Assembly: GCA_003671275.1 (NCBI GenBank)
Contig: QWPB01000163.1
Span: 1 to 43,696, forward strand
Length of the DNA: 43,696 bases
Source of the DNA: Planctomycetota bacterium
GTDB lineage: Bacteria; Planctomycetota; Planctomycetia; Planctomycetales; Planctomycetaceae
Direction: 5' to 3'
Shown here in pieces: positions 21,595 through 27,079 of the stretch. The position numbers and the translations under genes are program-made. Position 1 is the first letter of the stretch. Every line of letters starts with the position of its first letter. The notes under the pieces were generated by a model, which worked only from the letters and a program-made list of their open reading frames with translations, was not told the origin of the DNA and made no database searches.

Positions 21595-21899
21595 GGGTCT
21601 CTCAGGCAGGAAACAGGCGGTGCGGTGGCCTCGTACAGTCCGAAACGGGGGAGGCCGCACAGCCCGGCGGGCTCTGTGTGGAATGTATGAAGGTGCGAGA
21701 CTGATCGTCAAACGTCGGTCAGAGTTCTCCTGATCGAGGGGAAACCGGCATTCACCGACGATTGCGGCACATGGCGGATGGTCGCGCACTTAGAAACGGT
21801 AATGACCGTGGAGATCAAGAGGCCGACCTTGTTGAGGTTCCCGGTCCCGGTCATGATGGTCAACGGAATCTTCCCGCAGGCATGCCCCTCGGCGGACCC
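21595..21899. other. Divergent intergenic region between pyrB and the 21900 gene
   Basis: This 305-base gap holds the pyrB leader with the hairpin at 21620-21660 and a second small hairpin AGCCC/GGGCT (21661-21673). The half nearer the plus-strand gene shows no clear promoter. Open frames reading through it upstream of 21900 lack coding character. Confidence 0.4.
21620..21660 (-). promoter_or_regulatory. Hairpin in the pyrB leader (candidate attenuator or binding site)
   Basis: On the minus strand GTGCGGCCTC (21660-21651) pairs with GAGGCCACCGCAC (21632-21620), with a short bulge, enclosing an 18-base loop. It lies 26-66 bases upstream of the pyrB start codon. Pyrimidine genes are commonly controlled by leader RNA structures, which makes regulation plausible. 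There is no T run after the stem, so it is not itself an intrinsic terminator. Confidence 0.45.
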
Positions 21900-23027
21900 A
21901 TGGCACACGCATACACCCCCGGGCTACAGGTGATGGAGCGAACCCGCTTTCGAGCGGTGCGAACGCTGCCGATTTCCGGCCAGGTACTAAAACAGGTGGG
22001 CGACCGGGTATCGGCCCGCGATGTGGTCGCGGAAACCCTCCTGCCGGGAGATATCTTTCCCGTGAATCTGGCGAACCAGCTGGCCATCAACCCCGGGGAA
22101 GTTCCGGGTTGCCTGCTGAAGGATGTCGGGGACTCCATCCAGGAAGGGGAACTGCTGGCCCGATCACCCGGGATGTTCGGACTGTTTCAGGCGGAATGCC
22201 TGTCGAAACACACGGGCACTGTGGAATCGGTCTCCCGTGTGACCGGTCAGGCAATTCTGCGAGGGGCTCCCCTGCCCGTCCGTGTCTTGGGATATGTGGC
22301 GGGGGAAGTCGTCGAGATCGTGCCGAACGAAGGTGTGGTCGTCGAGACGGAAGCATGCCTGATTCAGGGGATTTTTGGCATTGGCGGTGAAGCCTATGGA
22401 GAGGTGGTTGTCGTCTGCAAACGTCCGGACGAAGACCTTTCCCCGGAAATGCTCCGCCCCGAACATCAGGGACGGGTCGTCGTGGGTGGCCGCCGGATTC
22501 TGGGAACCACCATCAACCGCGCACGAGAACTGGGGGTAACGGCTATCGTCGCCGGTGGAATCGACGATCAGGATCTGCGGGACATTCTGGGATACGACCT
22601 GGGCGTTGCCATCACCGGGACCGAGACCATGGGCATCACCGTCATTGTGACCGAGGGGTTCGGCGAAATTGCAATGGCCGATCGAACGTTCTCCCTGTTT
22701 CAACTGCACTCAGGGCAGCTGGCATCCGTCAACGGGGCCACACAAATCCGGGCGGGGGTCATCCGCCCCGAAGTGGTGATCCCCTTGCCATCCCGGACAG
22801 CCACCAACAAACAAGCGGCAGCTGTGGGGGGCGGAGTCCTGGACCTCGGAACCCCCGTGCGGATCATTCGTGATCCGCATTTTGGCGTTCTGGGGACTGT
22901 GTCCGCCCTGCCCTCGGAGCCGCACGTATTGCCCACCGGATCCAGGGCCCGCGTGCTGGAGGTCCTCAGCGCCGATGGCACACGGAGAATCATCCCGCGG
23001 GCGAATGTGGAAATTGTCTCCACCTAG
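21900..23027 (+). CDS. Conserved-type protein with lipoyl-like N-terminal and KOW-like C-terminal parts, function unknown
   Basis: Unassigned soluble protein of 375 residues starting MAHAYTPGLQV. The N-terminal half (about 20-175) shows repeated short beta-rich patterns with LPISGQVLKQVGDRVSARDVVAET and VGDSIQEGELLAR, like the swivelling lipoyl/biotinyl-type fold, but without the MKM lysine. The middle (about 190-290) alternates strands and helices with many Gly (VTAIVAGGIDDQDLRDILGY). The C-terminal 75 residues (TPVRIIRDPHFGVLGTV ... SRARVLEVL) resemble two KOW-type modules. The ATG at 21900 is preferred because this N-terminus looks family-like to me; the frame is open from 21762. It is divergent from pyrB with no operon partner. 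Confidence 0.75.
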   Translation: MAHAYTPGLQVMERTRFRAVRTLPISGQVLKQVGDRVSARDVVAETLLPGDIFPVNLANQLAINPGEVPGCLLKDVGDSIQEGELLARSPGMFGLFQAECLSKHTGTVESVSRVTGQAILRGAPLPVRVLGYVAGEVVEIVPNEGVVVETEACLIQGIFGIGGEAYGEVVVVCKRPDEDLSPEMLRPEHQGRVVVGGRRILGTTINRARELGVTAIVAGGIDDQDLRDILGYDLGVAITGTETMGITVIVTEGFGEIAMADRTFSLFQLHSGQLASVNGATQIRAGVIRPEVVIPLPSRTATNKQAAAVGGGVLDLGTPVRIIRDPHFGVLGTVSALPSEPHVLPTGSRARVLEVLSADGTRRIIPRANVEIVST

Positions 23028-23230: not shown

Positions 23231-26200
23231 TTACAGCATCCCTTCGGAGCCTTCGGACACTGAAGGCGATTCCGTGTTATCGCGGCGGAATGACCACCAT
23301 GCCTTCCTGGGCAGAACCGCCAGCAGGGCAATCACCAGCTGGGTTCCAGCGAATACCGCCAGACTAAACGCCCGGCCTTCGGTCACGCCGTAAGAGTGCA
23401 GACCAACGTTGAGTTCATTGACTCCGAAGAAGGACCAGCTCACGACGATATTGCCCAGTACGGCGAGCGAGGCCATGCCGCGTTCGCGAACCATCCCGCC
23501 CCAGCGAGCGTGCAACACCAGAGCGTTCCACAGCACAATGATCAGGGCCCCGTTTTCCTTGGGATCCCAGCCCCAGAAGCGGCCCCACGAATCATCGGCC
23601 CAGAGTCCGCCCAGCACGGTCCCCACAAAGCTGAAGAAGATCGCAAAACACAAGGTTCCATACATCATCGAGGCCAGTCGCTTGCGGTCCTCAACCCCCA
23701 GAGCCGGAGTCAGGATACCGCCCAGGATGTAGACCACGCCGATGAAACCCGCGACATAGGTCGTCGAGTATCCCAGCGAGATCGTGACCACATGCGTCGC
23801 CAGCCAGAACTGGGTATCCAGTACGGCTTGCAGCACCGCAAACGTGTCACCATCGGTCGTCAATCCATTGGCCACACGCAGACTCAGATAGCCCGCTACG
23901 CAAGCCAGCGTTGTCCCCAAGCCCTTCTTGAGAAACAGTTCCAGTACCAACCCAAACAGCGCAGCCCCTGCTCCAATGAAGACGGCTGCGGAGTACAAAT
24001 TCGTGACCGGCGGACGACCCGAAATGTAGATCCGGCCCGAAATCGCGACCACATGGAGACCAAAGGTCAACAACCCCAACGTCAGAGCGGCCAGATGAAT
24101 CGAACGCATTCCGCCCAGCACGTTGGCAATCCAGCCCAGTGCCACCAGGACGAAAGCCAGGACGTACAGCCAGGAGGCCAGATTCAATGGGCCCACACGG
24201 TTGAAGAAGTGCTCGAACGCCGTACGTTCGAGATCCAGCACGGCCCCGGATGACTTCACGGTCAACTGCTCCGGCGTCGCAGCGTGCAACATGGCCGTAT
24301 AGGCCATCACATGCTCGTTGAACTTGGCTGGATCATTCCGGCGGTAGGCCGCCAGCATGCCCTTCCAGTGATCGACCGCTGGCGAAGTTTTTCCGCTGAC
24401 ATCATTCTCGACCGCATTCACGGCGGCGGCTTCGATAAACGTCATCCAGTCCGACCGGGTGGGAAGAGGCAACCGGTCACCGGTCACTCCCAGATCCATT
24501 GGAACGACGATGGCGAACTGACCATCCCGCGAGAGTTTGGCCAACGCCCCCAGATAATCCCGAAGTTGAAAGAACATCGCCTGGGCCCCCTGCGGATCCG
24601 CCTGGATCTGCTCCATCGTCGGCATCGGCGGAGCCGGGAAGACAGTCGTCGGATCGGTGAACATGAGCCGGATCTTGTCGTAGTTGTTGACCTGCCGCTC
24701 CAGGGTCAGCAGCTTGCGCTGATACAGGTTCCGCAAATCGCTCTTGAGATCGCGAGCCTGTTGAATCTCCTTCTCCATTCCGATCAGCTTCTCACGAAAC
24801 TCACGGATCGCGTATCGGAACCGCTCGCGTTTTTCGAGCCCCAGGGCTTTTTGCAGTTCCAGGTTTTCGACACGGAATACCTGATGCTTATCCGCCGCAT
24901 CCGTGCTGACACCTTGTTCATCGGTGACGACATCCAGCAGCCAGCGAACTGCCGGGATGCCGGTCTTCGAGACCGGAGCGGCATCGGCTTTCTGGGCATC
25001 GGGCGCGGCGAGAGGCGGTTTCTCCGGGGAAGCCGGGGCCTCGGCAACCCCGACAGAGGCAGCGCTAATCGCATCCTTGTCACTAATGGAGAGCAGTGCG
25101 TTACGCGCCAGGCTGTCGATCGGCTGGGCCCGTCCTTCGTAGAAGATCGGGATATTCCCGAAGGCGGCATAATCAAACTCGGAATCCGATGCTTTGGTAC
25201 GGACAAACATCACCACGATGCCGCCGAATACCAGCACCGACAGACTGATTGCAATCGTGTTGCCAATGAACGCGTAGTGGTCCGTATCATCGTTCAATGA
25301 CAAGCCGGACTTCAGGAATCCCGGCTGGGCGACCCGGCTCAAGAATCGCAACAGCACCACCCCAAACTGAAACAGCATCCCGACTGCTGTAATCATGCAG
25401 GCCATGTACGGGATCATCCAGCCTTCGTTCTCCACGACTTGCAGGCTGGTAATCTCTCCATGCCCCTGACCACCGGGATCATAGTTACTCTGATAAAACG
25501 TAAAGCCCCCATAACGCAGGGGGTTGTTCATCCAGATGTGTACGTCTTCGAGCTTGGTGCCGTGAGATTTGTCGACCAGCGTCACGACCGAGCGGAAGTC
25601 CTTGGGCCGGTCCGTGCCCACGTAAACATTCTTCTGCACGTCTTTCAGCGTCAGGTGGAACGGGGTGTACGTCCGGCGGAATCGCAGTTCCAGCATGTAC
25701 GTTTTGCCGTTGTGCTGGATCGACTCCGGACGGGTCAGAATGGTGGTCACCAGATAGATGCCGACCTCTTTCCTGGTCTGGCGATCAATCACTCTCACGT
25801 AACCAGAGGGAGTGTCCACCTGCCCCGATGTGTCGGTTCCAACGCTGGTGGGAAGATCGACGATCCGGAAGGTCTGGCCCAACCCCGTAGTGGCCAGGTC
25901 CGGTTCCTTCGGTGCTTCCGCAGGCTGCCCGGGCCGAGACATCCGGAACTTCGCCACCTTGTTGTATAGATCCGAGTGTGGGTAGTAATCCAGCAGCTCG
26001 ATCGCAAACGGCAGCCGGGAATCATCAAACGCAGCGCCCTCGACCAGCATGCGCCCCGGAATGATGGTCTCGACATCTTCCTTCGCATCGGAAAGGTCGA
26101 TCACAGCAAGTTCCGAGCTGCGAATGTCGGTGGTGTAGGTCGCAGTGTGGCCCTCTTCAATCTGCATGCTGGCTTCCATCGTACCGGCATTCATACCGAC

Positions 26201-27079
26201 GATGATCTCGTAAACCATCAACAGACCGATCCCGGCATGCAGCAACACCACTCCGGCCCGCTTCTGGAACACCATCCAGCAACCCAGCATCAGCACCAGT
26301 CCACAGAGCGTCCCCTTGAGCAACTGGTAAAGAATCCGCATGCCCGCGTCTTCCAGTGGCGGGGAGAGCAGGACTGCGGAACTGCCCACGGCCGACAGAA
26401 CCGCCATCGACAGCATGAACCAGCGGGTGGACCGCGTCTGTTCATCACTCAGGCCGAGAAACACCAGGGCTCCCGAAGCAGCCAGCAGTGTCAATCCCAT
26501 GATCTGCCACACCGTGTCGTATCCAATCACAGCTGCGGTCTGAACTCCGTCGGCGGTCGCGGCGGTTTCGATAATGGACCAGGTCAGCAACGAACCCAAT
26601 CCAATGACTCCCAGTCCAGAGTACAGGAGTGTTCCCTTGGACTGGATCCGGAAGCGAACGGCGTGGGCCGCCAACAGATTGACGAACATGACGGCCCCGA
26701 TCGTCCAGCCGCGGGGAAACCAGAAACCGTACTTGTCGGGAATGGGTTCCATCCCGGGACAAATCGCGGGCGGTGTGAAGATCTCGAATCGGATCCAGAC
26801 GAACAAATTCTCGAAGACCGCGCGGAACGAACGAGCCTGAGCCAGTTCATCCTTGTCGATCCGAAAATATTCCCGCACCGCTTGCCAGACATCGGCGTCG
26901 ACTTGTGCCAGCGTACCCGCCAGAACGTTAAACGAAGCCAGCGCCAACAGCACAACAGTCAGTTTCAGTGACGCCAAAGGCCGCACAATTGCCGAGACTT
27001 TGCCCCACAACCCGGCGGCTGCGGGTTGAGCCGGAGCAAAGCCTTCACGGGACGCTGGGGGGATTTGCGAAAGGGTCAT
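23231..27079 (-). CDS. ccsBA: Giant ResB-CcsA fusion, cytochrome c biogenesis (system II heme export/ligation)
   Basis: Fusion of the two system II cytochrome c assembly proteins, 1282 residues in the inner membrane, exporting heme and attaching it to CxxCH of apocytochromes. The N-terminal ResB/CcsB part (about 1-640) has LASLKLTVVLLALASFNVL and a large periplasmic domain. The C-terminal CcsA part (about 960-1282) carries the WWD heme-handling motif near 1169 (WGRFWGWDPKENGALI) and candidate heme-ligand histidines in HVVAISGRIYISG, HVVTISLGYS and GLHSYG. Between them is a ~315-residue soluble insert starting IFYEGRAQPIDSLARNALL, then a Pro/Ala-rich linker and a charged coiled-coil-like stretch. 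Start ATG has GGAG upstream. Confidence 0.93.
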   Translation of the reverse strand: MTLSQIPPASREGFAPAQPAAAGLWGKVSAIVRPLASLKLTVVLLALASFNVLAGTLAQVDADVWQAVREYFRIDKDELAQARSFRAVFENLFVWIRFEIFTPPAICPGMEPIPDKYGFWFPRGWTIGAVMFVNLLAAHAVRFRIQSKGTLLYSGLGVIGLGSLLTWSIIETAATADGVQTAAVIGYDTVWQIMGLTLLAASGALVFLGLSDEQTRSTRWFMLSMAVLSAVGSSAVLLSPPLEDAGMRILYQLLKGTLCGLVLMLGCWMVFQKRAGVVLLHAGIGLLMVYEIIVGMNAGTMEASMQIEEGHTATYTTDIRSSELAVIDLSDAKEDVETIIPGRMLVEGAAFDDSRLPFAIELLDYYPHSDLYNKVAKFRMSRPGQPAEAPKEPDLATTGLGQTFRIVDLPTSVGTDTSGQVDTPSGYVRVIDRQTRKEVGIYLVTTILTRPESIQHNGKTYMLELRFRRTYTPFHLTLKDVQKNVYVGTDRPKDFRSVVTLVDKSHGTKLEDVHIWMNNPLRYGGFTFYQSNYDPGGQGHGEITSLQVVENEGWMIPYMACMITAVGMLFQFGVVLLRFLSRVAQPGFLKSGLSLNDDTDHYAFIGNTIAISLSVLVFGGIVVMFVRTKASDSEFDYAAFGNIPIFYEGRAQPIDSLARNALLSISDKDAISAASVGVAEAPASPEKPPLAAPDAQKADAAPVSKTGIPAVRWLLDVVTDEQGVSTDAADKHQVFRVENLELQKALGLEKRERFRYAIREFREKLIGMEKEIQQARDLKSDLRNLYQRKLLTLERQVNNYDKIRLMFTDPTTVFPAPPMPTMEQIQADPQGAQAMFFQLRDYLGALAKLSRDGQFAIVVPMDLGVTGDRLPLPTRSDWMTFIEAAAVNAVENDVSGKTSPAVDHWKGMLAAYRRNDPAKFNEHVMAYTAMLHAATPEQLTVKSSGAVLDLERTAFEHFFNRVGPLNLASWLYVLAFVLVALGWIANVLGGMRSIHLAALTLGLLTFGLHVVAISGRIYISGRPPVTNLYSAAVFIGAGAALFGLVLELFLKKGLGTTLACVAGYLSLRVANGLTTDGDTFAVLQAVLDTQFWLATHVVTISLGYSTTYVAGFIGVVYILGGILTPALGVEDRKRLASMMYGTLCFAIFFSFVGTVLGGLWADDSWGRFWGWDPKENGALIIVLWNALVLHARWGGMVRERGMASLAVLGNIVVSWSFFGVNELNVGLHSYGVTEGRAFSLAVFAGTQLVIALLAVLPRKAWWSFRRDNTESPSVSEGSEGML

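Follow-up and report, generated by a model that had tools for sequence, protein, structure and literature searches.

GlmL has been proposed to act as a reactivase or chaperone for glutamate mutase, and in the reactivase of diol dehydratase (DdrA) a swivel domain is joined to an ASKHA ATPase. Here we analyze a gene, named X in this work, whose genomic partners include a protein of the GlmL/MutL family (PF13941; hereafter MutL). X lies in a 43,696-nt stretch of a Planctomycetota genome (contig QWPB01000163.1; "the window"). Neither the folds of X nor the MutL family is new. X is one of six to seven genes that form a conserved set without assigned function, and our literature searches, made below the level of full text, found no paper on the set of X, MutL and DUF6754 and none naming DUF6754. 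PMC10632474 concerns the essential genes of P. limnophila. We consider it probable that X acts as the soluble adaptor, or coupling subunit, of a membrane complex that MutL powers and that also contains DUF6754 and three membrane proteins, named here TM231, P289 and TM307.

A conserved soluble protein

X is the 375-aa product of an intact open reading frame at 21900..23027 on the plus strand. The mechanically called frame opens at a TTG at 21762; both family alignments, of 36 and 80 rows, open at the ATG at 21900. The protein has no transmembrane segment by hydropathy, and the gene is single-copy, with one match only among the contigs of the window genome. NG86 estimates of dN/dS against the nearest relatives are 0.223/1.81 (homolog in G002) and 0.219/1.74 (homolog in G001), values at which dS approaches saturation; for G001 against G002 the estimate is 0.011/0.19 (genomes, contigs and loci carry our own numbers, prefixed G, C and L). 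From these low ratios, between the two homologs as well as against each of them, X is under purifying selection.

Searched alone, the window protein gives a sub-threshold match to PF00364 in Pfam (20.4 bits, below the 22.1 cut-off), weak pantothenate kinase matches in NCBIfam and two weak matches in the PDB (phmmer). The initial annotation had spoken of an unknown family. X by itself has no strong match in these three databases; it belongs to the core of a gene set found in many bacteria. In the window it is flanked by an OTCace-family gene and a ResB/cytochrome c assembly fusion, both on the minus strand. This fusion, whose assembly part is CcsA-type, is 1282 aa long and adjoins X at 23231-27079 (-).

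A scan of genome contigs returned at least 563 X-encoding stretches, of which the best 80 were kept. Record titles and a tree place X in at least nine phylum-level groups: Planctomycetota, Zixiibacteriota, CSSED10-310, Fermentibacterota, Elusimicrobiota, Eiseniibacteriota, Caldifarciminota (WOR-3), Poribacteria and Fidelibacterota/Neomarinimicrobiota, three of which rest on one record each. One record labelled Acidobacteria and one labelled Bacteroidia fall among the Planctomycetota and may carry wrong labels; another, labelled Nitrospira, is doubtful. Searches with X (tblastn) against plasmid and phage collections gave no match, and a mobile-element reading was dropped on that ground. A defense-system reading was dropped as well, PADLOC having matched neither X nor any of its six partners.

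X belongs to a conserved gene run

Clustering of open reading frames in relatives revealed a recurring run around X: a small protein of ~130 aa, a MutL-family protein (PF13941, 2e-129 at locus L058), X, a DUF6754 protein (PF20539, 1.4e-114 at L058), and TM231, P289 and TM307, whose L058 representatives have no Pfam match. Counting a same-strand MutL that ends at most 2.5 kb upstream of X and a DUF6754 that starts at most 3.2 kb downstream, we found MutL at 60 of the 71 named-contig loci that have 2 kb or more of flank and DUF6754 at 55 of the 67 that have 1.5 kb or more. At 39 of 52 named-contig loci with wide flanks, the fetched stretch holds all five larger partners on the same strand as X. 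In a second set of 40 loci, hand-picked for diversity, the corresponding counts are 27/38 (MutL), 29/39 (DUF6754) and 21/37 (all five).

Both MutL and DUF6754 stand beside X in six groups (Planctomycetota, Zixiibacteriota, CSSED10-310, Elusimicrobiota, Eiseniibacteriota and Fidelibacterota), and the Fermentibacterota record has MutL alone. Within the loci themselves, neither gene was found near X in Poribacteria (L148, L150, L155) or WOR-3 (L120, L144, L157). The gene-neighborhood comparison that the initial annotation had called for thus shows that X is not an orphan. Its statement that X lacks an operon partner is accurate for the window, where the neighbors are on the minus strand, but not for the family, which has a conserved run; in the window genome, the five larger partners are on other contigs.

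The association extends to gene fusion. At three of the 80 loci, all from Neomarinimicrobiota, MutL and X form one open reading frame (L099, 1006 aa; L112, 999 aa; L108, 870 aa, beginning at the contig start). In L099 and L112, the two that are read through, the motif HAYTPGL from the N-terminus of X is kept at the internal MutL-X junction.

Two further arrangements were seen. In one Zixiibacteriota locus (L127:11525-20855), three DUF6754 genes lie behind a single MutL-X pair, two of them in complete DUF6754-TM231-P289-TM307 cassettes. A protein of ~150-180 aa also recurs in 29 loci; it matches a bacterial PH domain in L085 (7128-7679; PF10756, 1.5e-6), lies directly upstream of the small gene in L085 and L099, and is a possible eighth member.

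The gene set persists where the run has dispersed

Across 59 relatives, X was found in 24 genomes, DUF6754 in 25 and MutL in 26, and all 24 genomes with X carry both partners. A survey of 392 genomes from the phylum found X in 105, DUF6754 in 110 and MutL in 115 over its cut-off (124 at E<=0.001 without it); 100 genomes have all three and 269 have none. Of 14 control genomes, DUF6754 matched none and MutL two, below the cut-off. X occurs without DUF6754 in 4 of 105 genomes (G124, G198, G207, G410) and without MutL in 2 (G098, and G198, whose X match is itself weak); conversely, 9 of 110 DUF6754 genomes and 12 of 115 MutL genomes lack X. Some of these exceptions are incomplete genomes, but not all: G207 (99% complete) has X and MutL without DUF6754, G155 (94%) has MutL and DUF6754 without X, and G343 (97%) has DUF6754 only. 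Absences in these searches are not proof, because a limited set of first-pass candidates was scored, and Fisher tests on gene order and co-occurrence counted related genomes as independent. The association of X with MutL and DUF6754 is strongly supported.

The window genome itself carries all five larger partners, with the six genes spread over five contigs: X on C175, MutL on C22, DUF6754 on C56, TM231 and P289 on C57, and TM307 on C117. X looks like an orphan in the window because the set is scattered in this genome. Scattering is also seen in single-contig genomes: in G006 the six genes lie at five sites (X and DUF6754 together at 0.29 Mb, MutL at 0.79, TM307 at 2.30, TM231 at 3.48 and P289 at 3.53 Mb, this P289 having one internal stop), and in G034, also one contig, three. 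In the same-genus genomes, TM307 was not found in G001 (71% complete), nor TM231 and TM307 in G002 (66% complete). That the set is kept after break-up of the operon speaks for a common function and not for a gene order that has merely been frozen.

Variation within the families was also noted. In the MutL-bearing genomes G286, G338, G250 and G342, which lack X, the MutL frames span 468-579 aa, against ~590-760 for most X-associated MutL proteins. The shorter frames suggest that PF13941 may combine two subgroups, an idea with which G155 (598) and G110 (678) are at odds; some further frames are fragments. Extra, strongly diverged X copies or fragments (G069:C95, G096:C308, G179:C37, G222:C30 and C34) share contigs with extra MutL copies, suggesting paralogous sets.

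A putative ATPase and its membrane partners

The MutL partner is ~600 aa long, comprising PF13941 and ~118 further residues. Conservation is high: over 19 rows, identity to the first row is 58-78%, and the protein preserves the ATPase-type motifs ATDCGSTTTKA, STSSAGGG and VDIGGATTD, which we take to be those of ASKHA ATPases. Its profile matched nothing in the PDB up to E 0.01.

An alternative is that MutL and X serve a cobalamin-dependent mutase as its reactivase or chaperone, with X providing in trans a swivel domain like that of DdrA. X does carry a swivel-type domain, which the natural fusions join to MutL, and the MutL partner of L058 scores against the GlmL models, at 226.5 bits for NF040745, 203.8 for NF040744 and 168.9 for TIGR01319. 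All three scores, however, fall below the respective cut-offs (475, 600 and 204.05), the constant partners of X are membrane proteins, and DdrA is not among the 50 fold matches listed for X. Nor was a mutase recognized in the 25 most recurrent neighbor clusters, each judged by eye from the opening 120 residues of a single member. We regard a reactivase role as unlikely.

DUF6754 consists of an FN3 domain (in many members), a transmembrane helix, a conserved alpha/beta domain and a C-terminal helix. In a model of the L079 protein, which is not from the window genome (pLDDT 93.2), the FN3 domain matches titin FN3 at Z 14.9, and FN3 matches fill the fold list. Pfam recognizes fn3 in 13 of 46 members, and the family profile matches the PDB over the N-terminal FN3 part only (residues ~22-139, among the 60 of 98 matches listed); both results come from an alignment (A4) that includes the out-of-frame row of L152. 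Topology is ambiguous, with basic residues on both flanks of the helix. We assume that the alpha/beta domain is cytoplasmic, since the FN3 domain is supposed to be exported. For the membrane proteins, profile searches of the PDB gave one weak match for TM231, to antiporter subunit F (E 0.045), a best E of only 0.83 for P289, and nothing up to E 1 for TM307.

The TM231 homolog of the window genome (C57; L164:1498-3330 (-)) is 611 aa long, carries an insertion of ~370-380 residues and has no Pfam match. Split TM231 matches in G001, G006, G013 and G029 suggest similar insertions.

X combines three known folds

An AlphaFold2 model of X, built from the window protein and 79 relatives (mean pLDDT 86.3, pTM 0.71), together with the Pfam matches of the family, shows that X joins three known folds, a barrel-sandwich, a swivel domain and a KOW/SH3 barrel, in one soluble protein. 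It opens with HAYTPGL (residues 3-9; 21906..21926, +), in which Y5, P7, G8 and L9 are invariant over 36 rows; over 80 rows P7 and L9 remain so, and Y5, T6 and G8 exceed 90%. Residues 1-7 have pLDDT below 50. This motif, conserved at the fusion junctions as well, is possibly a docking peptide.

The middle of the protein (residues ~129-297; 22284..22790, +), noted initially as a Gly-rich part, proves by fold comparison to be a domain that we assign to the class named swivelling beta/beta/alpha. VIA-align matches it to RraA (1j3l; Z 9.8, 4.7 Å over 131 aa), to AF_0055, presumably the aconitase-X small subunit (2hi6; Z 9.1, 2.8 Å over 110 aa), and to rifampin phosphotransferase (5fbt; Z 9.1, 3.1 Å over 108 aa), although matches at Z 8-10 are moderate and no proof of function. 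ZNRF3 ectodomains and aminopeptidases also rank high in Foldseek; we take these matches to be PA domains, of the same fold class. The glycine-rich motif QGIFGIGGE (residues 156-164; 22365..22391, +) has Q156, G157, G160 and E164 invariant in both alignments, as are T281, Q282, R284, A285, G286, R289 and P290 of the strongly conserved block TQIRAGVIRPE (residues 281-291; 22740..22772, +). No invariant or nearly invariant histidine was found in the 80-row alignment (A3), and the domain is therefore not a phosphohistidine carrier.

At the C-terminus lies a KOW/SH3-like barrel (residues 313-375; 22836..23024, +). Among the fold matches listed, Spt5 and NusG KOW rows align with it at Z 8.0-8.9, for example Spt5 KOW 8ram_Z (Z 8.9, rmsd 1.0 over 51 aa), and the best PDB match of the family profile is again SPT5 KOW, a weak one (E 0.049). 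The initial annotation was thus right about a KOW-type fold but not about two modules, as there is a single barrel. Such a barrel might bind nucleic acid, the ribosome or RNA polymerase, tying the membrane system to gene expression, and its closeness to Spt5 KOW (rmsd 1.0-1.7 over 50-52 residues) would fit. We find this decidedly improbable: PF00467 matches weakly and in only 12 of 80 members (best 0.0024), KOW/SH3 barrels bind proteins too, and X has a MutL-family protein and membrane proteins for partners.

The N-terminal part (residues ~8-128, limits approximate; 21921..22283, +) is, judging from Pfam, a barrel-sandwich region of the lipoyl/RnfC_N/NQRA_N kind. At E<=0.1, PF00364 (Biotin_lipoyl) matches 60 of 80 family members (best 3.5e-9), RnfC_N (PF13375) 36 (best 4.9e-8) and NQRA_N (PF05896) 16 (best 1.5e-5). 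A lipoyl-like N-terminus had been proposed, and these matches bear it out, even though the window protein itself stays below threshold; the structure prediction suggested at the time likewise returned the KOW barrel. The RnfC_N and NQRA_N matches and the membrane partners, one of them with its faint likeness to an antiporter subunit, would suit a subunit of an Rnf/Nqr-related redox or ion pump. X has no invariant cysteine in the 80-row alignment, however, the 80-member Pfam table holds no further Rnf/Nqr domain at E<=0.1, and no Rnf/Nqr gene was recognized by eye among recurrent neighbors, though NADH-dehydrogenase/antiporter-type genes lie near 9 loci; we give this reading little credence.

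In the hairpin region, where a carrier lysine might stand, the window protein has P90 and Q97, as in the hammerhead-like pattern without lysine described initially, and a carrier lysine is absent from it. Most relatives have K at these columns (62 and 57 of 80 rows), and lysine is invariant nowhere in columns 70-112 of A3. That X is a biotinyl/lipoyl carrier is extremely unlikely, since, for all the PF00364 matches and the frequent lysine at the column of window residue 90, the window protein has P90 and Q97, no lysine there is invariant, and the model places a ten-residue loop between strands 85-88 and 99-101. Nor is there support for the earlier suggestion that X is a scaffold for nucleic acids or cofactors, given the missing lysine in the window protein, the single KOW-type barrel and the identity of the constant partners.

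A probable coupling subunit of a membrane complex

The coupling-subunit reading that we favor builds on the observed gene order, the MutL-X fusion, the near-obligate co-occurrence, the persistence of the six larger genes in genomes where they are dispersed, the three domains of X and the lack of a carrier lysine in the window protein. MutL, to go by its motifs, would be the ATPase that powers the complex. X would reside in the cytoplasm and bind MutL directly, and its swivel domain would relay the conformational change of the ATPase to the membrane proteins, beginning with DUF6754. Both the barrel-sandwich and the KOW barrel may be modules for protein docking. With a flexible, conserved N-terminal peptide, a movable swivel domain and two docking-type barrels, X could be such a link.

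More tentatively, X, MutL, DUF6754 and the three membrane orphans may constitute a membrane machine, driven by ATP and so far undescribed, whose ASKHA-type ATPase works on a membrane complex by way of a barrel-sandwich/swivel/KOW adaptor. If true, this would be an energy-coupling design without a characterized counterpart. The label of PF13941, named after glutamate mutase, looks misleading for the MutL subgroup described here. Co-occurrence can place an orphan gene whose operon has scattered; here it replaces a vague unknown by a complex that can be tested and whose subunits are named.

Comparison with known systems

Part by part, X resembles several described proteins. Its C-terminal barrel superimposes on Spt5 KOW as given above and on NusG single-domain rows at rmsd 1.4-2.9 over 54-55 residues; X differs from Spt5 and NusG in having only one barrel, in its gene context and in showing no NGN match in the Pfam table. 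RraA, AF_0055 and the phosphohistidine swivel domains align with its middle over 108-131 residues (Z 9.1-9.8), at 12-16% identity for RraA, AF_0055 and 5fbt, but X has no invariant histidine. RnfC and NqrA are alike in the N-terminal barrel-sandwich sequence matches and differ in the remainder, which in X is swivel and KOW without an invariant cysteine. DUF6754 (PF20539), without assigned function, lies directly downstream of X in most loci and occurs in largely the same genomes. The MutL partner differs from GlmL in scoring below the curated cut-offs, in its ~118 extra residues, in its company of membrane proteins and in having no mutase recognized nearby. The likeness to the GlmL/MutL family (PF13941; NF040745, TIGR01319) is that of X's partner, not of X, and this PF13941 protein is both the most constant gene partner of X and its fusion partner.
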